Below, one piece after another: positions 23,877 through 40,021 of a stretch of DNA of 40,980 bases. A model generated the notes under the pieces. It saw nothing but the letters and a program-made list of their open reading frames with translations. It was not told where the DNA came from and did no database searches. The stretch's first letter is position 1, and each line of letters begins with the position of its first letter. Both the position numbers and the translations under genes were made by a program. Where the stretch lies: positions 1 through 40,980 of the forward strand of contig CAIKRV010000014.1 of the NCBI GenBank assembly GCA_903829945.1, in the 5' to 3' direction. The stretch comes from an uncultured bacterium (GTDB lineage: Bacteria > Bacteroidota > Bacteroidia > CAILMK01).

Positions 23877-24740
23877 TTAATGTTCCAGCACTTTCAATAA
23901 ATATTCGCCGTAACCACTTTTTTGAAGAGGCTTGGCGAGTTCGCTCAGGTGAGCTGCACTGATAAAACCTTGACGATAGGCAATTTCTTCTATACAACCT
24001 ATTTTCCAGCCTTGACGTTCTTCAATGACCTGTACAAATTGGGAAGCTTGCATTAAAGAGCCGAAAGTACCGGTATCCAGCCATGCGGTGCCACGGGATA
24101 GCATTTGAACTTTAAGTTTATTAGCAGCTAAAAATGCCTTATTCACATCCGTGATTTCGTACTCGCCACGGGCGGAAGGTTGCAAGTTTTTAGCAATTTC
24201 GACTACAGAATTATCATAAAAATATAAACCCGGTACAGCATAATTACTTTTGGGTTTGTTAGGCTTTTCTTCGATACTTAAAGCATTGAAGTTATTGTCG
24301 AACTCAACTACTCCATATCTTTCAGGATCAGATACATGGTAAGCAAAAATAATTCCACCTTCCGGTTGCAGGCAATGATTTAAGGCTCCCTGTAAATCGG
24401 CCCCAAAGAAAATATTATCGCCTAAAATTAAGGCAACATTATCCTCACCGATAAAGGATTCACCGATGACAAAAGCCTGGGCCAAGCCATTAGGATTTGG
24501 CTGTTCCGCATAAGAAAATGAGCAGCCAATTTGAGAACCATCTCCCAGTAAACGCTTAAAATGCGGTAAATCCAATGGCGTAGATATGATGAGGATTTCA
24601 CGAATACCGGCCATTAGTAATACTGATAATGGATAGTAAATCATTGGTTTATCATACACCGGCATGAGTTGCTTGCTCATAGCTAAAGTAATAGGGTGTA
24701 ATCGAGTCCCGGAGCCACCGGCGAGTATTATGCCTTTCAT
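23877..24740 (-). CDS. rmlA: Glucose-1-phosphate thymidylyltransferase
   Basis: A 287-aa cytoplasmic nucleotidyltransferase that makes dTDP-glucose from dTTP and glucose 1-phosphate, the first step to dTDP-L-rhamnose and other deoxysugars of surface polysaccharides. Landmarks: [33 protein letters not shown] (nucleotide-binding signature and catalytic Lys region), [11 protein letters not shown] (metal-binding Asp), [22 protein letters not shown], and [22 protein letters not shown]. Length is typical. rmlB, rmlC and rmlD are not in this window, so the rest of the pathway must lie elsewhere. It has a near-consensus -7 box 5 nt before its ATG. Confidence 0.95.
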
Positions 24741-24989: not shown

Positions 24990-27347
24990 ATGAAAAGAAC
25001 CCTTTTCTTATTTGCAACCCTCATGCTCTTTGCAAGTTCAATTTTTGCTACCGCAGGCAATCAACCCATTAAATATGCAAAGTTGGTTGATGCAAATGGT
25101 CGGCAAGTTCACTTTGGCGATACTGTAACCGTCAAAGGAATTGTACAAAGTGTTAATATGCCCGGAACCTTAACGGGAAGTTATTTCTTTTCCATTTATG
25201 ATTCCAGTTCTGCCATTACTATTTATATGGCCAGAACCAAAGGAGGCAGAAGAAGCGGATATAATTATACCTACTCGCCAACTTTGGGAGATTCCGTTTC
25301 TTTAACGGCTACCGTTGCTTTTTATACTGTAAGAGCGGGATTTGGGGTAGTGGACACCACCGGATTTGAAATCTTGGCACCACTTCCGGTGAGCGGATAT
25401 GATATTACGCTGATTAATTCCGGAAACACCGTACATAATCCTACATTGGTCAGCGGACTTCGTGAAAAAGAAGAATCAAACTTGGTGGAATTGGATAGTT
25501 TAACTTTATCCAATTCATCGCAATGGACCGCAGGTACCGGAAATTTTGTAAATGTACAAGCGCATAAAGTGAGTGATACTACTAAGAAATTTATGTTGCA
25601 TGTACCTTCTGATGTTATCAGCAGTCGTGTTCCTTTAGGGATATTTAATGTACAAGGCATCGTTTATCAACAAGATATTACTGCGCCTTATACTTCAAAT
25701 TACATGTTGATACCACGTTACTATTCCGATTTTAATATTATCTCTGCACCAAAAATCCCGATTCATAAAATAATTGAAATCAATCAGGAAACCAGTGGTA
25801 TTGCAGATTCCACCGGGAAATTAGTTCGTGTAAAAGGGATTGTACAAAGTACAAACTTATATCCTCCGGGAGTTAGTAAAAATGTTTTATTGATTTCAAT
25901 ATTTGATAATACCGGTTCAATTATCGTTTACAATTCAACCAGCAATATGGGATACACTCCAAATATTGGTGATTCATTTTTCGTAGAAGGAACGGTTGCA
26001 CAAATTAAAAATGTAACAGCAGGATTTCCGCCTACGCAGTTTAATACCGGTTGGACATATATTAATCCTGATTCAATAGCATTGCCCTCTTTTTCTACAG
26101 GCAATACTATTAAAAATCCTATCCAAGTAACTACATTGGCGGATAGTTTAGAATCCAAACTTATCACCTTAAAGAATGTAAAATTATTAGACACTACACA
26201 ATGGGATACCACCGGTACTTCTTTTGGAAGATTTTATTTCCCAAAATATCAAATGTATGTTGATTTGGTGGATCAAAATAATAATCATACCAGAGCATGT
26301 ATTTTGCGTATTGATTCATTGTTTTTCATTAGAAGACCGATTGATTATTTTAATATAACAGGTATTGAAGGTCAGGATACCATTACGCCGTTAGCATTTA
26401 GTATTTATCCTAGATTTAATGCCGATATCCAAATGATTCCTCCGGTATTGAGTTACTATAAAATCAGTCAGGTAAAAGGCAATGATGGCAATGGAGTAGC
26501 TACAGCAATTAATACCAAATGTTATTTGAAGGGAGTGGCGCACAGTGAAAATTTATTGAGCGGCGGTTTAAAATTCTCTTTGGTAGATAACACGGGTGCT
26601 ATCACAGTGTATCGTACTAAAGCCTTGGCGAACTATACGCCACTACGTGGCGACAGCCTGAAGGTTTATGGTAAAATATCCCAAATTAACGGCCTGACCG
26701 TAATATTGGCCGATTCTATTGAGAAAATTAGTTCCGGTAATCCTTTACAAAACACCTATACGGTATCCGTGCTTATAGAAGCCGATGAGTCCTATCCAAG
26801 AAAATTAGTACATGTAAAATTGGTAAGTCAAACCCAATGGAATCCGGCTGCAAGTACAGGTACTAACGGATTCAGCATAACGGTAAAAGATACCACCAAT
26901 TCTGATACCTTCTCCGTGTTCATTTCCAATGCCACCTCAGCGTTTAAAATGAGTATCCCGCAAGGACCGTTTAATATTACCGGTATATTGCAACAAAGCG
27001 ATATGAATTCACCGTTTAATTCCGGTTATTATTTAGTTCCACGCGATTCCAATGATATCTGGTTATTATCCAGAGGAGTTCAAGGTATAGAAAACCAAAG
27101 TAATAATCAGATTCCGGTAACTATTTATCCAAATCCTGCTACCCAATTGGTTAATATTCAATTCGGAGCATTAAACGGAGCAGCAGTGATGATGAATTTA
27201 TACAGCGCTACCGGAGTATTAATACATTCCGAAAAAGTGTATGGATCTTCACAAATGGATATATCCAACTTAGCGAAGGGTATGTATTTTATAAAAATGA
27301 ATACTGAAGGAGGTTTACAAAGTAGTTGTAAGCTCATTAAAGAATAA
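24990..27347 (+). CDS. T9SS-secreted protein with three tandem OB-like double units
   Basis: A 785-aa protein with signal peptide (MKRTLFLFATLMLFASSIFA) and C-terminal Por secretion tail (about 707-785: VTIYPNPATQLVNIQ...LAKGMYFIKM), so it is exported by the type IX system. The region between is built from three repeats of about 220 residues (roughly 27-250, 255-484, 485-700). Each opens with an OB-like half (VKGIVQSVN / VKGIVQSTN / LKGVAHSEN, then S-[IL]-[FVY]-D-[NS]-[ST]-[GS]-[AS]-I-[TI]-[VI]-Y and a GDS turn). Each closes with a second half beginning GN[TP][VIL][HKQ]N and containing SQW/TQW and FN[VI][QT]GI. The fold resembles the YhcR/DUF5689-type OB domains of Bacteroidota surface proteins, some of which accompany nucleases, but no nuclease domain is present. 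Ligand unknown. Confidence 0.82.
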   Translation: MKRTLFLFATLMLFASSIFATAGNQPIKYAKLVDANGRQVHFGDTVTVKGIVQSVNMPGTLTGSYFFSIYDSSSAITIYMARTKGGRRSGYNYTYSPTLGDSVSLTATVAFYTVRAGFGVVDTTGFEILAPLPVSGYDITLINSGNTVHNPTLVSGLREKEESNLVELDSLTLSNSSQWTAGTGNFVNVQAHKVSDTTKKFMLHVPSDVISSRVPLGIFNVQGIVYQQDITAPYTSNYMLIPRYYSDFNIISAPKIPIHKIIEINQETSGIADSTGKLVRVKGIVQSTNLYPPGVSKNVLLISIFDNTGSIIVYNSTSNMGYTPNIGDSFFVEGTVAQIKNVTAGFPPTQFNTGWTYINPDSIALPSFSTGNTIKNPIQVTTLADSLESKLITLKNVKLLDTTQWDTTGTSFGRFYFPKYQMYVDLVDQNNNHTRACILRIDSLFFIRRPIDYFNITGIEGQDTITPLAFSIYPRFNADIQMIPPVLSYYKISQVKGNDGNGVATAINTKCYLKGVAHSENLLSGGLKFSLVDNTGAITVYRTKALANYTPLRGDSLKVYGKISQINGLTVILADSIEKISSGNPLQNTYTVSVLIEADESYPRKLVHVKLVSQTQWNPAASTGTNGFSITVKDTTNSDTFSVFISNATSAFKMSIPQGPFNITGILQQSDMNSPFNSGYYLVPRDSNDIWLLSRGVQGIENQSNNQIPVTIYPNPATQLVNIQFGALNGAAVMMNLYSATGVLIHSEKVYGSSQMDISNLAKGMYFIKMNTEGGLQSSCKLIKE

Positions 27348-27370
27348 TTCTTGTACGTAATGTATTCCCG

Positions 27371-27410
27371 AAAGTGCCCTGTTCAATTCCGAACAGGGCA
27401 CTTTTATTTT
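27371..27410 (+). terminator. Strong intrinsic terminator after the OB-repeat gene
   Basis: AAAGTGCCCTGTTC (27371-27384) pairs perfectly with GAACAGGGCACTTT (27391-27404) around the loop AATTCC: a 14-bp stem with a T-rich tail (CTTTTATTTT). The A-rich 5' end gives some bidirectional potential. Confidence 0.92.
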
Positions 27411-27459: not shown

Positions 27460-27476
27460 CATTTGATTTTTAATTG

Positions 27477-29816
27477 ATGAAAAATTTGCACACCACCACG
27501 CTTTCCATTCGTTCGTTGAGAACACCCGTCATTTTAATTGTATTTTTCGCCTTTTTTGCATCCACAGTTTTTGGACAGACAGGAGAATTCAGAGGTTTTA
27601 TTTATAATAAAAATGGAGGAGAGCCTATTTTATATGCAACTATTAAGGTTAAAAACACCAAGCTGGGAACCATCAGTGATGAAAACGGCTATTATGATAT
27701 AATCAAATTAGCACCCGGAAAATATACCATTCAGTTTTCCTATTTGGGTTTCGATACCACCTTTTTAGAAATCAATTTACATGCCGGAGAAAAATTAACC
27801 AAGAATATTTTTCTTGTCGGGCACCAAACAGAATTGAAAGAAGTAAGTGTAAATGCAAGTAGATCTAAACAAAATACCAGAGTTGAAATTTCAAAAGTAA
27901 GTATTACAGCCAAAGATATCCAGATGTTGCCCAGCATAGGCGGGCAGGCGGATTTGGCCCAGTATTTACAGGTATTACCCGGCGTTGTATTTACAGGCGA
28001 TCAAGGCGGACAATTATACATTAGAGGAGGCTCTCCGGTGCAAAATAAGCTTACTTTGGATGGTATGACTATATATAATCCATTTCACTCTATAGGGCTG
28101 TATTCCGTACTGGATGTAGATATAATTCGTAATGCAGATATTTACACTGCGGCTTTCCCGGCGGAATATGGTGGTAGAATATCTTCCGTAATGGATATTA
28201 AAACCAGAGATGGCAATAAGGAGCATTTTGCAGGCATTGTCAGCGTGAGTCCCTTTTTATCTAAGTTGTCCCTGGAAGGTCCTTTACTTAAAATGAATGA
28301 AAACGGTACTTCAATATCTTATTTATTTTCCGGCCGGACTTCCTATTTAAAATCTACGGCACCTGTTTTTTATCCCTATACGGATGCATCAGGCCTGCCA
28401 TATACTTTTACTGATTTATACGGCAAAGTAAATATTACCGGGGCCGGAGGCAGTAATATCAGCTTCTTCGGTTTTAACTTTAAAGACAATGTTGATTTTA
28501 AAAATTCCACTTCTTATGGATGGAATTCTTATGGTGCAGGCACCCGATTTTTAATTGTACCCTCTACTACTTCCACTATTATGGAAGGTACGGTGGCCGT
28601 TTCCGGATATTCCAGTTCGCAAACCAATCCCGGGGAAAAGCCAAGTACCAGTTCCATTAATGGCTTTGAAGGCAATATTAACTTCTTGAATTATTATGGC
28701 AATGATTTATTGAAATACGGCATTAATTTAATTGCGTTTAATACTAATTTTAGTTTTGATAATGCAGCCGCAGTAAATGTATCCCAACAAGATTTTACGA
28801 CTGAATTGGCCAGTTTTGTAAACTATACAAAAGTCTTAGGCCGCTGGGTAATTGATCCGGGATTACGTCTGCATTATTATGCTTCCCAATCAGAGTTGGC
28901 CTTTGAACCAAGACTGGGGGTAAAATATGTATTAAGCGAACGTGTTAGAGTAAAATTTGCCGGTGGCTATTATTCCCAAAATTTAATGGGGGTTACCAGC
29001 GATCGTGATGTGGTCAATTTATTTTATGGATTTATTGCAGGTCCTGCGGATTTGCCTAGTCATTTTGACGGGCAGGCAACCAATAGTGTTTTGCAAAAAG
29101 CAATTCACGGGGTAGGCGGATTTGAATTTGATTTAGGGAAAAATATAAGTTTAAATCTTGAAGGTTATATTAAGGACTTTACTCAGTTGACTAACTTAAA
29201 TCCTAATAAGATTTTTGACAATACTGCCTCTTTCCTAAATAAACCGGATTATTTGCGTGAAGATTATATTATTGAAACAGGAAAGGCCTATGGTATGGAC
29301 TTGAAAATTGTATATGATAAACGTCCATTTTATGTTTGGGTAACTTATTCTTTAGGTTTTGTTACCAGAAATGACAGCTTCCAAACCTATTATACCAATT
29401 GGGATAGGAGACATACCATAAATGTAGTGACCTCTTATGACTTTGGTAAAAAGCACAGTTGGCAGTTTAATTCACGCTTTACTTTAGGTACAGGGTTCCC
29501 ATTCACTAAAACAGCAGGTTTTTACGACCAGCAAACTTTTCAAAATGGCATCACAGGAAATTATGCAAGCAGTAATGGTATATTAGGAGTATTATATAAT
29601 AATCAAATAAATACCGGACGATTATCTACTTATCATCGTTTGGATGTTTCTTTACAAAAAAAATATACTTTTGGTCAGTATCGAGAATTACGTTTAAACC
29701 TGACGGTGACCAATGTATATGATCGGGCTAATGTTTTTTACTTTAATAGGGTCACTTATGAACGCATCAATCAGTTGCCAATATTACCAAGCTTTGGCAT
29801 TACTTTAGTATTCTAA
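27477..29816 (+). CDS. TonB-dependent receptor with carboxypeptidase-like N-terminal domain
   Basis: A 779-aa outer-membrane active transporter. The signal peptide runs to about residue 34 (ILIVFFAFFASTVFGQ). A carboxypeptidase-regulatory-like domain follows (about 36-120: EFRGFIYNKNGGEPILYATIKV, KLGTISDENGYYDI, YTIQFSYLGFDT), as in Bacteroidota receptors of SusC and related type. The plug comes next (about 140-240: DLAQYLQVLPGVVFTGDQGGQLYIRGG, VQNKLTLDGMTIYNP, AAFPAEYGGRISSVMDIKTRDG). The remainder is a beta-barrel ending in the aromatic LPSFGITLVF. No SusD partner is adjacent, so it is not a classic polysaccharide-utilisation pair; the substrate is unknown. The TTG at 27474 directly before the ATG is an unlikely start. 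A terminator isolates it from the gene upstream. Confidence 0.92.
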   Translation: MKNLHTTTLSIRSLRTPVILIVFFAFFASTVFGQTGEFRGFIYNKNGGEPILYATIKVKNTKLGTISDENGYYDIIKLAPGKYTIQFSYLGFDTTFLEINLHAGEKLTKNIFLVGHQTELKEVSVNASRSKQNTRVEISKVSITAKDIQMLPSIGGQADLAQYLQVLPGVVFTGDQGGQLYIRGGSPVQNKLTLDGMTIYNPFHSIGLYSVLDVDIIRNADIYTAAFPAEYGGRISSVMDIKTRDGNKEHFAGIVSVSPFLSKLSLEGPLLKMNENGTSISYLFSGRTSYLKSTAPVFYPYTDASGLPYTFTDLYGKVNITGAGGSNISFFGFNFKDNVDFKNSTSYGWNSYGAGTRFLIVPSTTSTIMEGTVAVSGYSSSQTNPGEKPSTSSINGFEGNINFLNYYGNDLLKYGINLIAFNTNFSFDNAAAVNVSQQDFTTELASFVNYTKVLGRWVIDPGLRLHYYASQSELAFEPRLGVKYVLSERVRVKFAGGYYSQNLMGVTSDRDVVNLFYGFIAGPADLPSHFDGQATNSVLQKAIHGVGGFEFDLGKNISLNLEGYIKDFTQLTNLNPNKIFDNTASFLNKPDYLREDYIIETGKAYGMDLKIVYDKRPFYVWVTYSLGFVTRNDSFQTYYTNWDRRHTINVVTSYDFGKKHSWQFNSRFTLGTGFPFTKTAGFYDQQTFQNGITGNYASSNGILGVLYNNQINTGRLSTYHRLDVSLQKKYTFGQYRELRLNLTVTNVYDRANVFYFNRVTYERINQLPILPSFGITLVF

Positions 29817-33136: not shown

Positions 33137-33700
33137 TTATGTGATACTGATATCGTATTTATTTAATAGTCCCATGGCGCCGTAAATTGAAAATTTTGCT
33201 TTTTTAATCGTATTTTGATCCGGGTCTATTGAAAAGTGATGTGCGGTTCTAAAATCTGTTTCTTTCAAATTGGTATTGGAGAAAATGACATTTAATAAAT
33301 CACAATTATCGAATATTGCTTTCTGTAAATTACATTCACTGAAGTCTACATTTTTTATAGAACAGCTTTTGAAAAGAGTTGCATTCAATTTCTTTTTAAT
33401 AAATATGGAATAATCAAGTATAGAATCTTCAAACTGGACAGAAAATAAAAAATCTGTGCATTCGTTAAAGTGAATGCCCATGATTTTACAAGCAATAAAT
33501 TTAGCATTATTTAATTGGCAATTGTATAATTTAGTCATTGAAAAATTACAATTTCTAAATTCACAATCCAAAAACTTACAGGAGGAAAAAATACTTTCAA
33601 TAAAAATGCAATCCGTAAAAATGCAATTTTCAAATTCATGATTTTTGAATTCTTGATTGGCGTAATTTATGGCCTTAAAGGTAACATCAGCAGTAATCAT
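33137..33700 (-). CDS. Pentapeptide-repeat protein
   Basis: A 187-aa protein made of repeats of the pattern [A/C/F]-x-[F/L]-x-x: KNHEFENCIFTDCIFIESIFSSCKFLDCEFRNCNFS in pieces across about 20-55, then NAKFIACKIMGIHF and NVDFSECNLQKAIFDNCDLLNVIFSNTNLKETDF to about 170. These form a right-handed square beta-helix. Unusually many repeats carry Cys at the position before the central Phe or Leu. No signal peptide is present, so it is cytoplasmic. Some relatives mimic DNA and protect gyrase (Qnr/MfpA); many others have unknown roles, and nothing here decides between them. A 73-bp gap separates it from pyrF. Confidence 0.88.
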   Translation of the reverse strand: MITADVTFKAINYANQEFKNHEFENCIFTDCIFIESIFSSCKFLDCEFRNCNFSMTKLYNCQLNNAKFIACKIMGIHFNECTDFLFSVQFEDSILDYSIFIKKKLNATLFKSCSIKNVDFSECNLQKAIFDNCDLLNVIFSNTNLKETDFRTAHHFSIDPDQNTIKKAKFSIYGAMGLLNKYDISIT

Positions 33701-34005: not shown

Positions 34006-35409
34006 ATGCTTAGAAAGATATTACCCATTTTAGTACTCACTTTATCTCCGGCATTTGCATTTACACAATCCACTTCTGCTCCTAAGGAAGTCATGAATTT
34101 AAGCCTATCCCAGGCCATAGATTATGCGATGTCGCATAAAGCGGATGTAATTGATGCGCAAATTGATCAGAAAATTGCCAAACAAAAAGTTAGAGAAATT
34201 ACCGGTGCAGGATTACCGCAATTAAATGCTTCATTTGAATTGCAAGACTATATTGTTCGTCCTACCACGGTGTTTCCGGATTTTCTTTCACCTTCCATTT
34301 ATGGGGTATTGGTAAAGGAAAATTTAGTACCTGTATCTCATTTCCCTGCTTCAGTCGGAATGTTTCCGGTGCAGTTTGGAACTAAATATAATGGTACCAT
34401 AGGCGCATCTGCATCCCAACTCATTTTTGACGGTACATTTTTAGTTGGTTTAAAAGCAGCCAGAGTGTACACTCAATTGGCTCAAAAAATGACCGATCGC
34501 ACACGCATCGATGTTGTAGAAAATATTACCAAGGCTTATTACGGTGTAATTATTAATCAAGAACATAAAAAGCTTTTGGAAGCTAATGTTGCTCGATTAC
34601 AAAAAATATATGATGATACTAAGGCTTATAATGAAGCCGGTTTTGCCGAAAAAATTGACGTAGATCGTTTAAAAGTTCAACTAAACAATTTATTAGTTGA
34701 AAACGAAAAAGTTGATCGATTATTAGAAATCAGTGTGGACTTATTAAAATTCCAAATGGGTATGCTTATTAGTTCCGAAGTGAAACTAACGGATACTTTA
34801 ACTTATAATGCAATAGTAGAAGAAGCAGGAAATAATACTGATTTTTATTCCGGCAGAATTGAATATTCCTTATTGCAAACGCAAAAGGAACTTTATGGTT
34901 TGGATGTAAAAAGAAATCAAGCAGGTTATTTGCCAAACCTGGCAGCTTACGGAAGCTTAAGTTCTCAAGCCTTAAGAAATGAATTTAATGTATTTGATCC
35001 CGGAAAACAATGGTATGCCTCCTTTATTTTAGGAGCTAAATTAAATCTGCCAATTTTTGATGGTTTTCAAAAAAGTGCCAGAATTCAACAGGCAAAATTA
35101 AATTTGCAAAAGCTTACTAATGATGAAAACAATCTTAAAAATTTAATTGATTTTCAAGTGAAGGCCGCCAGAGTAAGTTATGACAATGGATATAAAACTT
35201 TGATGGAACAAAAGCAAAATATGGAATTGGCTCAGGATGTAGCCAGGGTAACACAAATTAAATATAAGGAAGGTGTAGGCTCCAATTTGGAAGTGATTAA
35301 TGCTGAAACTTCCTTACGTGAAGCTCAAACCAATTATTTTGATGCCTTGTACAATCTCATCATTGCACGCACCGACTTATTAAAAGCTGAAGGAAAACTA
35401 AGTAAATAA
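34006..35409 (+). CDS. TolC-family outer-membrane efflux protein
   Basis: A 467-aa protein with signal peptide (MLRKILPILVLTLSPAFAF). Two outer-membrane efflux repeats follow: the first starts at NLSLSQAIDYAMSHKADVIDAQID (about 31-54), the second near DFYSGRIEYSLLQTQKELYGLDVKRNQAGYLPNLAAYGSL (about 280-320), with long helices between (for example QEHKKLLEANVARLQKIYDD) and the late RVTQIKYKEGVGSNLEVINAETSLREAQTNYFDALYNL. Trimers of such proteins form the outer-membrane channel and periplasmic tunnel of tripartite pumps. First gene of the operon, 36 bp before the adaptor, under a canonical promoter. No local regulator is present, so control is not visible. Confidence 0.94.
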   Translation: MLRKILPILVLTLSPAFAFTQSTSAPKEVMNLSLSQAIDYAMSHKADVIDAQIDQKIAKQKVREITGAGLPQLNASFELQDYIVRPTTVFPDFLSPSIYGVLVKENLVPVSHFPASVGMFPVQFGTKYNGTIGASASQLIFDGTFLVGLKAARVYTQLAQKMTDRTRIDVVENITKAYYGVIINQEHKKLLEANVARLQKIYDDTKAYNEAGFAEKIDVDRLKVQLNNLLVENEKVDRLLEISVDLLKFQMGMLISSEVKLTDTLTYNAIVEEAGNNTDFYSGRIEYSLLQTQKELYGLDVKRNQAGYLPNLAAYGSLSSQALRNEFNVFDPGKQWYASFILGAKLNLPIFDGFQKSARIQQAKLNLQKLTNDENNLKNLIDFQVKAARVSYDNGYKTLMEQKQNMELAQDVARVTQIKYKEGVGSNLEVINAETSLREAQTNYFDALYNLIIARTDLLKAEGKLSK

Positions 35410-35445
35410 AATCACCGATAAAACATAAAATTTTAATTCATCATT

Positions 35446-36567
35446 ATGTATAAAAGGATATTACCAATACTCGCTCTTGCCTTTTTAATGGCTTGTGGGA
35501 ATAAAACCACCGAAAGTAAAAAGGAAAAATTAGACAAGCTCAAAAAAGATGAAGCTGCACTGAAAATTAAAATTCAGGATTTAGAAAAAGAATTAGGCGC
35601 CGATAATTCTGCACAAAATGCAGAATTGGTTAGTTTAATGAATATTCAGGTGAAGCAATATAAACATTATCTTGAAGTACAAGGTAAGGTAGATTCTGAT
35701 GAAAATACCGGTGTAAGTGCAAAAGCCGGTGGAGCTATTACGGATATTAAAGTTCAACGCGGCGATCATGTTTCTCGCGGACAATTACTCATTCAATTGG
35801 ATGATGCGGTATTGCGTCAAGGATTGGAAGAACTTAAAAATTCATGGGAACTTGCCAATACGGTTTATAACAAGCAAAAAAAGCTTTGGGATCAAAAAAT
35901 TGGTACCGAGTTACAATACTTAACTGCTAAAAATAATAAAGAATCTTTAGATCGTAAAATGTACACTATGCAGGAGCAAATTGAATTGTATCGCATCAAG
36001 TCTCCAATTAATGGTATAGTAGATGAAGTAACTCCGAAAATTGGTGAAACGGTAATGCCGGGTATGCCATTGGTTCGGGTAGTGAATTTAGATAAATCAA
36101 AAGTAGTGGCTGAAGTATCCGAATCTTATGCTTCTAAAATTAAAGCAGGAGATGAAGTATTGGTTTCCTTCCCCGATCAAAACAAAGATATTGTATCTAA
36201 AATTAGAGTGGTGAGCCAAGCCATCAATACCATCAACCGTACATTTACCGTAGAGCTTGCTATCTCTCCGAAGGATGTAAAATTACATCCGAATATGGTG
36301 GCTATCGTTAAAATAAATGATTATAAAAATGACAAGGCCATCGTCATTCCTGTAAATATGGTTCAAAGGGATGAAAAAGATGCATTTGTTTATGTGGCCG
36401 TTAAACAAGACAAAGGATATATTGCCAAGAAGAAAGTCATCACCACCGGCAGTAGCTATGGTGATGAAATGGAAGTCCTTTCCGGTCTTAGTACCACCGA
36501 TCAATTAATTGGCACCGGATACCAAAACGTAACCGACGGACAAGCCATTGAACTTTCAAAGAATTAA
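35446..36567 (+). CDS. RND efflux periplasmic adaptor subunit (membrane-fusion lipoprotein)
   Basis: A 373-aa protein. The lipobox LMAC puts the acylated Cys at position 17, so it is anchored in a membrane. A very charged helical segment follows immediately (about 24-55, KEKLDKLKKDEAALKIKIQDLEKELG), an extra coiled coil in front of the usual domains. Then come the first lipoyl/barrel-sandwich half (GAITDIKVQRGDHVSRGQLLIQLDD, about 97-121), a short hairpin (WELANTVYNKQKKLWDQK...LTAKNNKESLDRK), the second half (YRIKSPINGIVDEVTPKIGETVMPGMPLVRVV), and the beta-barrel and membrane-proximal domains (IKAGDEVLVSFPDQ, HPNMVAIVKINDY, VIPVNMVQRDE). It bridges the permease and the TolC channel. Middle gene of the operon. 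Confidence 0.93.
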   Translation: MYKRILPILALAFLMACGNKTTESKKEKLDKLKKDEAALKIKIQDLEKELGADNSAQNAELVSLMNIQVKQYKHYLEVQGKVDSDENTGVSAKAGGAITDIKVQRGDHVSRGQLLIQLDDAVLRQGLEELKNSWELANTVYNKQKKLWDQKIGTELQYLTAKNNKESLDRKMYTMQEQIELYRIKSPINGIVDEVTPKIGETVMPGMPLVRVVNLDKSKVVAEVSESYASKIKAGDEVLVSFPDQNKDIVSKIRVVSQAINTINRTFTVELAISPKDVKLHPNMVAIVKINDYKNDKAIVIPVNMVQRDEKDAFVYVAVKQDKGYIAKKKVITTGSSYGDEMEVLSGLSTTDQLIGTGYQNVTDGQAIELSKN

Positions 36568-36646
36568 ATTTCTTGTTAGCAAGAATTTTGAATAACCAGT
36601 GTTGACTTTTGAAAATAACTTTATTTTCTGCAATTAAACCGCTACA

Positions 36647-39600
36647 ATGAAGAATTTTAAACCTACCAGTTGGTCTATTGATAATAGAACCAGCATATAT
36701 ATTATAACGATAATAATTACCCTTGCAGGAATTATTACGTACAATAAACTCCAAAAAGAAAAGTTTCCTGATATTGTAATTCCTACTATTTATGTAGGTA
36801 CCATATATCCCGGTACTTCTCCTTCTGATATGGAGAATTTGGTTACCCGACCTATTGAAAAGCAAATCAAGGCAATTTCCGGAGTACGTAAAGTTACTTC
36901 TAATTCTGTACAGGATTATTCTATGATTACCGTAGAATTTAATACCAATGTACAAGTTACTGATGCCAAACAAAAAGTAAAAGATGCCGTGGATAAATCT
37001 CAATCAGATTTGCCTACGGATTTACCGCAGCAGCCCAACGTTCAGGAAGTAAACTTCTCCGATATACCGGTGATGTTTGTTAATCTTTCCGGTGATTTTG
37101 AGATGTCCAAAATGAAAAAGTACGCGGAAGATCTTCAAGATAAAATTGAAGGTTTTAAAGAAGTAACCCGTGTGGATATTGTCGGTGCTTTAGATAAAGA
37201 AATCCAGGTGGACGTAGATATGTACAAAATGCAGGTGGCAAAAGTTACCTTCAATGATATTGAGCGTGCCATTCAGTCGGAAAACATGACCATCTCTGCC
37301 GGTACCATCAAGGTAGGCGATATGAAACGTGCCATTCGCATCAGCGGACAATATTCCGATCCAAATTTAATCGGCGATATTGTTATTAAATCGTCTTTGG
37401 GCGGCAATATATATTTGAAGGATTTGGCTACTGTTAAAGAAGGATTCAAAGAGCGTGAAAGTTTTGCTCGTTTAGATCATAAGCCCGTAATTACCCTCAA
37501 CATTATTAAACGCTCAGGGGAGAACCTCATTGAAACTTCTGATAAAGTTCGTGAAGCTTGTACAGAAATGCAAAAAACCAAGTTCCCGAAAGATTTGAAA
37601 GTTACCATTACCGGGGATCAATCTTCTCAAACACGGAATACTTTAAATGATTTAATAAATACTATTGTTATCGGATTTATTTTGGTAACGGTGATTTTAA
37701 TGTTCTTTATGGGGACCACCAATGCATTTTTCGTGGCACTCTCCGTACCGCTGTCTGCCTTTCTGGCCTTCCTTTGTATGCCGCTACTGGGCGGTATCTT
37801 AGGATTTAGCTATACGCTTAATATGATTGTTTTATTTTCATTCCTGCTGGCCTTAGGGATAGTGGTGGATGATGCCATTGTGGTGATTGAAAATACCCAC
37901 CGTATTTATCATGACACCAAACAATCCATTATTAAATCGGCCAAGTTTGCTGCGGCGGAAGTATTTATACCTGTAATGGCCGGTACACTGACCACAATTG
38001 CACCATTCTTCCCGCTCTTATTCTGGCCGGGGATCATCGGTAAATTTATGTACTACCTGCCGCTGACTTTAATTGTAGTGCTTTTGGCTTCTCTTATCGT
38101 TGCATACATTATGAATCCGGTTTTTGCGGTTTCATTTATGGGTGATAAAAAAGACAAAGCTAAAAATGATAAATATTTTAAATATTCCGTTATCGGATTA
38201 GCAGTTTTAGCATTATTATTTTATTTAGGCAGTACCAAATGGTTGGGTAATTTATTAGTATTTATCGATGTGTTTATTGTCCTCAATAAATATGTATTTA
38301 ATAAATGGATTCATTACTTCCAAAATAAAACACTCCCTGCTTTTATGCGTGCTTATGAGCGTTTGCTCAGAAGGATTTTAAAGGGAAATATGCCGTATTA
38401 TACTTTATTAATTATTGTATTACTATTGGTGTTTTCAGTGGTATTGGTAGGTATTCGCGCACCAAAGGTGGTATTCTTCCCATCCGGTGATCCGAACTTT
38501 GTATATACTTATATTGAAATGCCTATCGGAACGGATATCAGTGTTACGGATTCTGTAACTCGGATTATTGAAAAACGAGTTTATGGGGTAATTGGAGAAA
38601 ATAATCCTGATGTAGAATCCGTTATTTCTAACGTAGCGGTAGGCGCCGGTGACCCGCAAAATCCTGATAGGAGTGTGGCACCACATAAAGGCAAAGTTGC
38701 CGTTGCATTTAAGGAATTTGCTGAACGTAAAAATCCGCATACTATAGTTTATTTGGATAAAATTCGTGAAGCTGTAAAAGGCATTCCCGGTGCTAAAATT
38801 ACGGTAGATAAAGAAGCCAATGGTCCTCCGGTAGGTAAACCGGTAAATATTGAAATTTCAGGAGATGATTATACCAATTTGGTGAAAATTTCTAAGGAAG
38901 TAAAAACATTTATTGAAAAACAAAAAATTGGCGGTATAGAAGATTTACGTTCCGATTTGCAGGATCAAAATCCTGAAATTAGAATTGATATTGATAGGGT
39001 AAGGGCCAATAGGGAAGGGATATCCACCGGACAAGTAGGTATGGAACTGAGAACCGCCATATTCGGATTTGAAGCTTCTAAGTTTAAGAGAGGAGAAGAT
39101 GAATATCCAATACAAGTGCGTTATTCAGAAAATGTGCGTAAAAACATTGATGCACTTTCTGATTTAAAAATTACCTACCGTGATATGAATACCGGTTTAG
39201 TGCGTCAAATACCGCTCTCTGCCGTGGCTAAGGTTAATTTCGGCAATACATTGGGTAGTGTAAAAAGACTCAACCAAAAGCGCTTGGTAACGCTTTCCAG
39301 CAATGTGCTGAGCGGCTATAATCCGAATGAAGTAGTTAGCAATATTAAAAATGCTTTAGTGGATTATCATGCTCCTGATGGATATGATATCAAATTGACG
39401 GGTGAACAGCAGGATCAAAAAGAAACCGGTGATTTCCTCGGCCTGGCCGGTATGCTGGCGCTTGGATTTATTTTGCTCATTTTGGTTATTCAATTTAATT
39501 CCTTCTCCAAACCGCTTATTATTATCTCTGAAATATTATTTAGTGTTATTGGGGTACTTTTAGGTTTTGCCATATTCAAAATGGATATTTCCATAGTAAT

Positions 39601-40021
39601 GACCGGGGTAGGAATAGTGGCACTTTGCGGTATTGTTGTTAAAAACGGTATATTATTAGTGGAATTTTCCGATGAATTAAGAGGAAGAGGACACCTTACT
39701 CATACTGCCATTATTGAAGCAGGAAAGACGCGTTTAACCCCCGTTATTTTAACGGCTACCGCTGCTATTTTGGGCTTAATGCCTCTTGCATTAGGGATGA
39801 ATATTAATTTTTATACTTTACTCGATCATTTCGATGCACAGTTTTACATCGGTGGTGAAAGTGTGGTCTTCTGGGGGCCTTTGGCATGGACCATCATTTT
39901 TGGTTTAAGCTTTGCCACCTTCCTGACCTTATTAGTGGTACCTGCTATGTATTTAATTAGTTACCGCATTAAATTCGGATTAAAAAGAAAAGGTATTTTG
40001 CCTAAGTTTAAGGCAGAATAA
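36647..40021 (+). CDS. RND efflux permease (AcrB/HAE1-like)
   Basis: A 1124-aa inner-membrane transporter that exchanges protons for export of hydrophobic or toxic compounds through the trimeric pump. The proton relay is intact: D408-D409 in GIVVDDAIVVIENTHR (TM4) and K999 in GIVVKNGILLVEF (TM10), matching AcrB Asp407/408 and Lys940. Two large periplasmic loops (about 35-330 and 620-910) hold porter/docking sequence (YPGTSPSDMENLVTRPIEKQIKAISGV). It is about 80 residues longer than AcrB. Much of the excess is two or three additional hydrophobic segments between TM6 and TM7 (about 505-550: YSVIGLAVLALLFYLG, LLVFIDVFIVLNKYVF), and there is an insert between TM11 and TM12 (about 1048-1070). Substrate unknown. 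Last gene of the operon, followed by a strong terminator. Confidence 0.95.
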   Translation: MKNFKPTSWSIDNRTSIYIITIIITLAGIITYNKLQKEKFPDIVIPTIYVGTIYPGTSPSDMENLVTRPIEKQIKAISGVRKVTSNSVQDYSMITVEFNTNVQVTDAKQKVKDAVDKSQSDLPTDLPQQPNVQEVNFSDIPVMFVNLSGDFEMSKMKKYAEDLQDKIEGFKEVTRVDIVGALDKEIQVDVDMYKMQVAKVTFNDIERAIQSENMTISAGTIKVGDMKRAIRISGQYSDPNLIGDIVIKSSLGGNIYLKDLATVKEGFKERESFARLDHKPVITLNIIKRSGENLIETSDKVREACTEMQKTKFPKDLKVTITGDQSSQTRNTLNDLINTIVIGFILVTVILMFFMGTTNAFFVALSVPLSAFLAFLCMPLLGGILGFSYTLNMIVLFSFLLALGIVVDDAIVVIENTHRIYHDTKQSIIKSAKFAAAEVFIPVMAGTLTTIAPFFPLLFWPGIIGKFMYYLPLTLIVVLLASLIVAYIMNPVFAVSFMGDKKDKAKNDKYFKYSVIGLAVLALLFYLGSTKWLGNLLVFIDVFIVLNKYVFNKWIHYFQNKTLPAFMRAYERLLRRILKGNMPYYTLLIIVLLLVFSVVLVGIRAPKVVFFPSGDPNFVYTYIEMPIGTDISVTDSVTRIIEKRVYGVIGENNPDVESVISNVAVGAGDPQNPDRSVAPHKGKVAVAFKEFAERKNPHTIVYLDKIREAVKGIPGAKITVDKEANGPPVGKPVNIEISGDDYTNLVKISKEVKTFIEKQKIGGIEDLRSDLQDQNPEIRIDIDRVRANREGISTGQVGMELRTAIFGFEASKFKRGEDEYPIQVRYSENVRKNIDALSDLKITYRDMNTGLVRQIPLSAVAKVNFGNTLGSVKRLNQKRLVTLSSNVLSGYNPNEVVSNIKNALVDYHAPDGYDIKLTGEQQDQKETGDFLGLAGMLALGFILLILVIQFNSFSKPLIIISEILFSVIGVLLGFAIFKMDISIVMTGVGIVALCGIVVKNGILLVEFSDELRGRGHLTHTAIIEAGKTRLTPVILTATAAILGLMPLALGMNINFYTLLDHFDAQFYIGGESVVFWGPLAWTIIFGLSFATFLTLLVVPAMYLISYRIKFGLKRKGILPKFKAE

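Follow-up and report, generated by a model that had tools for sequence, protein, structure and literature searches.

A predicted secreted Bacteroidota protein composed almost entirely of three DUF5689 units, with a possible role as a non-catalytic surface binder

The closest experimental information on DUF5689 proteins comes from Riemerella anatipestifer, in which transposon work identified a CarboxypepD-domain outer membrane protein and a DUF5689 protein as a pair required for natural transformation; in markerless mutants of these genes (RA0C_RS04915 and RA0C_RS04920) transformation fell below the detection limit, and the species is reported to be without pilus homologs (PMC8459023). In its passages on nucleases and phospholipase D, that paper mentions no nuclease gene next to the pair. 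In the literature searched, DUF5689 and RA0C_RS04915 were named only in PMC8459023, and no closer work was found. A second described protein of relevance is ExeM of Shewanella oneidensis, an extracellular nuclease with a lamin-tail domain, two putative OB folds and an EEP domain, whose nuclease activity is abolished upon removal of the region holding the two putative OB folds (PMC6085458).

The window analyzed here is the whole 40,980-nucleotide stretch of contig CAIKRV010000014.1 from an uncultured member of the Bacteroidia (assembly GCA_903829945.1). The gene of interest, its parts and its immediate downstream surroundings are as follows.

24990..27347, + strand: DUF5689 triple-unit gene with a type IX secretion system (T9SS) tail (ORF of 785 aa; Pfam)
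24990..25052, + strand: signal-peptide-like N-terminus, about residues 1-21, ending in IFATA (read by eye)
25065..25742, + strand: unit 1, residues 26-251, with its second half from about 25422 at GNTVHN (unit-profile match)
25773..26438, + strand: unit 2, residues 262-483, with its second half from about 26100 at GNTIKN (unit-profile match)
26457..27065, + strand: unit 3, residues 490-692, with its second half from about 26736 at GNPLQN (unit profile, PF18942 and predicted model)
27123..27344, + strand: type IX secretion C-terminal sorting domain, type A, residues 712-785 (PF18962 and TIGR04183)
27370..27405, + strand: intrinsic-terminator-like hairpin 3' of the gene, with a 15-bp stem, a 6-base loop and a T-rich tail
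27474-29816, + strand: outer-membrane barrel (CarboxypepD/Plug by Pfam), starting 126 bases downstream of the DUF5689 gene

The sequence-only reading had described the product as a T9SS protein with no enzyme domain, and both parts of that description were borne out. Por_Secre_tail (PF18962) matches residues 712-778 at 52.3 bits against a cut-off of 27, TIGR04183 matches the tail at 59.9 bits (cut-off 23), and the T9SS translocon protein SprA is present in the same genome (G000:C90; 2361 bits against a cut-off of 200), so that, with a sorting domain above cut-off and a T9SS in the genome, the protein qualifies as a predicted type A T9SS substrate. No lipobox cysteine was seen by eye in the signal-peptide-like start, and no enzyme family in Pfam matched the protein at an E-value of 1. 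PLDc_2 does match elsewhere in the genome, four times in three ORFs, but not in the DUF5689 protein. The isoelectric point of the protein (8.75) is uninformative when set against those of four tail-matching proteins of the same genome (5.56, 9.16, 7.00 and 8.63). The upstream gene (23877-24740) encodes a nucleotidyl transferase on the opposite strand, and the hairpin at 27370-27405 folds at -25.6 kcal/mol (z -7.0), with none of 200 shuffles equally stable. The DUF5689 gene therefore appears to be transcribed alone, between a gene on the other strand and a terminator-like hairpin that precedes the next gene.

Comparative analyses confirm that the protein contains three repeated units of about 200-225 aa, as had been proposed from the sequence. 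Plain self-BLASTP of the protein detected no internal repeats. Local alignment of unit against unit gave scores of 208, 202 and 199, which lie 26 to 33 standard deviations above 300 shuffles per pair. Moreover, a profile of 29 foreign units (gathered by a search seeded with unit 3 of the window protein, whose own rows were then taken out) matched residues 27-248 at 132 bits, 266-480 at 123 bits and 491-690 at 200 bits, and gave no match to any of 1000 shuffled versions of the protein. A wider unit profile, in which the window units are themselves rows, scored units 1, 2 and 3 at 200.7, 195.6 and 252.3 bits, and in a search of the same genome at an E-value of 0.01 the unit profile found no DUF5689 unit beyond these three. 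The motifs proposed to be shared fared unevenly: the GDS turn, GN-x-x-x-N and [ST]-Q-W each occur in all three units, whereas the opening VKGIVQS is exact in units 1 and 2 and reads LKGVAHS in unit 3, and the D-[NS]-[ST]-G-x-I-x-[VI]-Y core is present in units 2 and 3 and is broken in unit 1, where DSSSAITIY has no G.

In Pfam the unit is already known as DUF5689 (PF18942). The whole protein scores 40.6 bits against a gathering cut-off of 28.6, which places it in the family; of the units taken alone, unit 3 reaches 32.6 bits and unit 2 only 12.9 bits, and there is no match for unit 1. The family has no function assigned to it in Pfam, and the first half of the unit is here recognized, on the strength of a predicted model, as an OB fold. 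The model of unit 3 (pLDDT 90.5, pTM 0.88) was built from 22 alignment rows comprising window and related-locus units. Its first half matches 3e0e, an archaeal RPA OB domain, with Z 13.1 and an rmsd of 1.9 over 85 residues, and the next-closest structures include many aminoacyl-tRNA synthetase OB domains (the VIA-align rows span almost solely residues 1-103 of unit 3 and barely cover its second half). In agreement with this, PF01336 (OB) matches residues 46-112 of the whole protein, within unit 1, at 32.3 bits (cut-off 27), and it matches 10 of 22 units at an E-value of 0.1. When the unit profile was searched against PDB sequences, RPA subunits were the best matches (top E-value 0.0016); the whole protein searched against the same sequences gave nothing below an E-value of 0.05. 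The full-length predicted model was poor (pLDDT 55) and was set aside.

The second half of the unit is probably another OB, as its order of strands and helices in the unit 3 model fits that fold. HIN domains, which are tandem OBs, are the best Foldseek matches to the whole unit model, and the top one is p204 HINab bound to double-stranded DNA (E-value 3.5e-6, 210 columns). Superposition of unit and p204 HINab gave a TM-score of 0.38 and an rmsd of 17, which indicates that the relative orientation of the halves differs from that in HIN. Comparison of one half with the other by hhalign detected no similarity within the unit, using alignments that were shallow (Neff about 3), and nine second halves matched no Pfam family over cut-off except DUF5689. 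The OB-like double unit of the sequence-only reading thus stands for the first half and is probable for the second, and the structure prediction and Foldseek search that it had called for yielded an OB first half together with a whole-unit HIN match of low TM-score.

A full-length ortholog (L100), 38% identical to the window protein, was found in a genome of a sister genus within the same family (G003). In the unit tree, units 1, 2 and 3 of the window protein pair with units 1, 2 and 3 of L100 (support 93, 98 and 93), which suggests that the triplet predates the divergence of these genera. Pfam gives no enzyme family in L100, and its gene neighbors differ from those of the window gene. In the other genome of the genus of the window (78% complete), the matches listed are to the tail only. 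With unit borders set by profile for all 66 proteins compared, the units make up 93.7% of the mature length of L100 and 93.3% of that of the window protein, the two highest shares of the 66. The number of units among relatives ranges from one to six, with one in 38 of 66 and two in 16 of 66. The window protein is an addition to the known DUF5689 family, in an unusually pure form.

To place the protein among its relatives, DUF5689 loci were surveyed within the class. PF18942 matched in 86 of 247 genomes (E-value 1e-5), and 91 loci drawn from this search were examined and classified. At 59 of the 91, a CarboxypepD/Plug-type barrel, mostly of 840-1000 aa, is encoded within two genes of DUF5689, as counted with a two-round barrel profile at 150 bits or more that may include related TonB-type receptors. 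All 59 contain at least one DUF5689/barrel pair on the same strand. The figure is if anything low, because the DUF5689 ORF was missed in three of the 91 loci (L134, L141 and L186), apparently because overlap filtering favored a longer ORF on the opposite strand. The likeness of these loci to the Riemerella pair was judged by domain content, size and order.

An EEP nuclease gene lies within three genes of the barrel in 36 of the 59 barrel-linked loci (36 of 91 overall), and there is a recurring set consisting of a divergent EEP nuclease (PF19580), a CarboxypepD/Plug barrel and a DUF5689 protein of lipoprotein type (for example L092, 3124-8532; also L094, L097, L098, L110, L119, L123 and L151). 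By analogy, the EEP nuclease of this set could supply the missing nuclease of the transformation pathway. At 27 of the 91 loci, PLD and DUF5689 occur in one fusion protein, and 12 of these 27 fusion genes are within two genes of a barrel (L092-L094, L102, L162, L169, L172, L174, L179-L181 and L184). Four proteins combine Endonuclease I with DUF5689, of which three adjoin a barrel (L165, L167 and L175) and one is three genes away, and a single protein combines EEP with DUF5689. Among these T9SS-type nucleases near a barrel, the barrel and DUF5689 stay constant while the catalytic domain varies between PLD and Endonuclease I. Pfam scans of the example loci confirm PF19580, PF13091, PF04231 and PF03372.

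A tree of 122 units (FastTree, midpoint root) divides into two sides with local support of 97 each. The nuclease-linked side has 68 rows and contains 27 of the 28 lipoprotein-type units, all PLD, Endonuclease I and EEP units, and 9 others; labels were set by companion domain, and the lone lipoprotein-labeled unit that falls outside this side, L185, was so labeled merely as a short fragment. The other side has 54 rows and contains the window units, all 17 arylsulfotransferase-linked units of G002, and 33 others. Two proteins with lamin-tail domains (L105 and L190) are on the window side, and a third that also carries EEP (L160) is on the nuclease side. The G002 units include those of one locus (L103, G002:C17:30000-49525), in which four adjoining genes with T9SS tails encode an arylsulfotransferase-like domain followed by 1, 6, 6 and 4 DUF5689 units; the last gene is cut by the contig end, and the cluster has expanded locally in this relative from the same family.

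The division is also visible in a unit-profile survey of 295 genomes, in which a gap in score separates window-clade places (134 bits or more) from PLD and Endonuclease I places known by locus (101.5 bits or less), with the first unit of the ortholog (105.9) and a fragment (101.9) lying under it and some low-scoring places unclassified. A census of the clade at 125 bits or more comprised 65 proteins, several of them from ORFs cut by contig ends (e.g. L185, L217 and L227). L249, L252 and L253 (122, 114 and 108 bits) were left out, and G293:C146, G117:C12:114940 and G008:C293 are also outside it. Nineteen of the 65 came from the earlier loci, from which PLD carriers and L178 had been excluded by tree place, and 46 entered unfiltered; a Pfam scan (E-value 1e-4) covered 64 of the 65, leaving out L189:5044-7956. 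Among the 46 chosen without a nuclease filter, none had a nuclease domain, which is the fair statement of the result rather than none of 64, since 18 of the 64 came from pre-filtered loci. Proteins without an enzyme are therefore the norm in the window protein's own clade. This qualifies the earlier proposal that OB-like domains of this kind usually accompany enzymes: they can do so, with PLD, Endonuclease I and EEP, but "usually" does not hold in this clade. Eight loci of the first survey had been flagged as window-clade, one of which (L178) is an Endonuclease I fusion; none of the seven enzyme-free loci, and none of eight further ones, encodes a barrel within two genes of its unit protein.

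T9SS tails are present in 61 of the 64 scanned clade proteins. Companion domains include lamin-tail and Calx-beta (20 proteins each), fn3 (11), SusE (8), CBM_48 (2) and CBM_20 (1), as well as MAM and PKD. The lamin-tail, Calx-beta, fn3, MAM, PKD and starch-binding modules resemble general adhesion or glycan modules. Arylsulfotransferase occurs in four of the 64, all in one gene cluster of one genome.

Two placements of the window protein among these systems were considered and rejected. As the lipoprotein of a transformation pair, it has no lipobox cysteine, its units belong to the other clade, and the barrel of L092, which is of the transformation type, found no counterpart in its genome in a search with this one query and no positive control. 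As a DUF5689-linked secreted nuclease, it has no PLD, Endonuclease I or EEP domain in Pfam.

The barrel ORF directly downstream raises the related question of a partnership, as is thought for the DUF5689 lipoprotein and barrel of the transformation locus. It is on the same strand and only 126 bases away, the pairing with CarboxypepD barrels at 59 of 91 loci is as described above, and the two barrel families overlap after two profile rounds, which makes them distant kin. Against this, a strong terminator-like hairpin lies between the two genes, direct comparison matches the window barrel to the transformation-type barrel in the N-terminal region only (25 of 121 positions identical), none of 19 barrel orthologs has a DUF5689 gene within flanks of about 1.5 kb or less, and the G003 ortholog has other neighbors. 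With a terminator, no synteny and a different barrel, the partnership was rejected as very improbable. The 27474-29816 protein gave no match to a barrel domain in Pfam; 32 of the 39 other genomes searched encode relatives at 41-55% identity, of which three are split or partial.

Two other parts of the window were also inspected. The ORF at 33137-33700 (- strand) encodes a pentapeptide-repeat protein of 187 aa, from which no function can be read because its Qnr-like and HalA-like NCBIfam matches are all far below cut-offs. The genes at 34006-40021 (+ strand) encode a TolC-type outer membrane protein, an RND adaptor and an RND permease, and look like an ordinary efflux operon.

Overall, the reading that we tentatively prefer is that the window protein is a multivalent, non-catalytic surface binder made of three tandem-OB units, with nucleic acid, namely extracellular DNA, as the most likely ligand. 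We infer its surface location, the OB nature of the second half, the binding, and DNA as what is bound. The signal peptide would take the protein across the inner membrane and the T9SS across the outer membrane, so that the three units may end up outside the cell; there, three like modules in a row and no catalysis would suit an avidity-based grip on a long polymer. Nucleic acid leads as the candidate ligand by analogy, because of the OB fold and a DNA-linked sister clade whose DUF5689 proteins are tied to nucleases and transformation. ExeM, which loses its nuclease activity together with its two putative OB folds (PMC6085458), is a further point in favor. Conversely, DNA is disfavored in that the window units lie outside the nuclease-linked clade and their own clade is without nuclease partners, and those same relatives, with their lamin-tail, Calx-beta, fn3, SusE, CBM_48 and CBM_20 companions, are what an adhesin for polysaccharide or protein would lead one to expect. 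OB folds bind oligosaccharides as well, and the pairs could be general binding modules. The units of the clade are mostly acidic, in keeping with an adhesin (median net charge -3.8 per 100 aa, against -3.9 for the rest of the same proteins, with units the more positive in just 25 of 66), and those of the window are about neutral (+0.3 per 100 aa). Charge does not settle the question of DNA binding, because the median for 27 PLD-linked units is likewise acidic (-3.5). Since the nearest fold and sequence kin of the first half are nucleic-acid-binding OB domains and the sister clade is DNA-linked, we regard such an adhesin as a close rival that is possible but somewhat doubtful.

The variation in unit number among relatives, from one to six, would also fit a passive spacer, stalk or surface-layer material with no specific ligand, as would the G002 arrays of up to six units, which sit between an arylsulfotransferase-like domain and a T9SS tail. 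However, the window protein and L100 (93% and 94% units) have nothing to present at the end of a stalk and keep their unit positions in register, and a spacer role is unlikely. Nothing was found that speaks for a catalytic site hidden within a unit and missed by family searches, although the second halves match nothing in Pfam over cut-off other than DUF5689; given that neither the window protein nor L100 matches an enzyme family and that units form 93% of the mature protein, we consider this exceedingly improbable. A broader version of the DNA-binding reading that we prefer is more speculative and, on balance, rather unlikely: DUF5689 tandem-OBs may serve to grip DNA within a machinery on the Bacteroidota surface that captures, cuts and imports extracellular DNA, in which nucleases (EEP, PLD and Endonuclease I) are swapped around the DUF5689 and CarboxypepD-barrel pair, and of which the window protein would be a nuclease-free, threefold version that holds DNA for adhesion or foraging.

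Whichever ligand applies, two DUF5689 clades are distinguished here, one linked to DNA and the other a surface clade free of enzymes, and the window protein, a triple array that is pure by nature, offers a clean object on which to measure what DUF5689 binds. If that ligand is DNA, the result would bear on how bacteria of this group that are without pilus homologs, as reported for Riemerella (PMC8459023), handle extracellular DNA.

In comparison to known systems, the window protein shares the DUF5689 domain with RA0C_RS04920 of R. anatipestifer (PMC8459023), whereas the Riemerella-like proteins of the survey are shorter, stand beside a different barrel and have units of the other clade. The T9SS nucleases with DUF5689 (PLD, Endonuclease I and EEP) have the same type of tail and a related unit, but carry a catalytic domain where the window protein has none. 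ExeM is likewise extracellular with two putative OB folds, and its lamin-tail domain recurs in several clade relatives of the window protein, but it is a nuclease (PMC6085458). The OB domains of RPA and of the HIN-200 proteins p204 and AIM2 have in common with the first half of the unit the OB fold; they are distant and, unlike the window protein, are not bacterial surface proteins. The same-clade DUF5689 T9SS proteins share both unit and secretion tail, and among them L100 keeps the three-unit order; most of these combine one or two units with other sequence, whereas the window protein and L100 are nearly all units.
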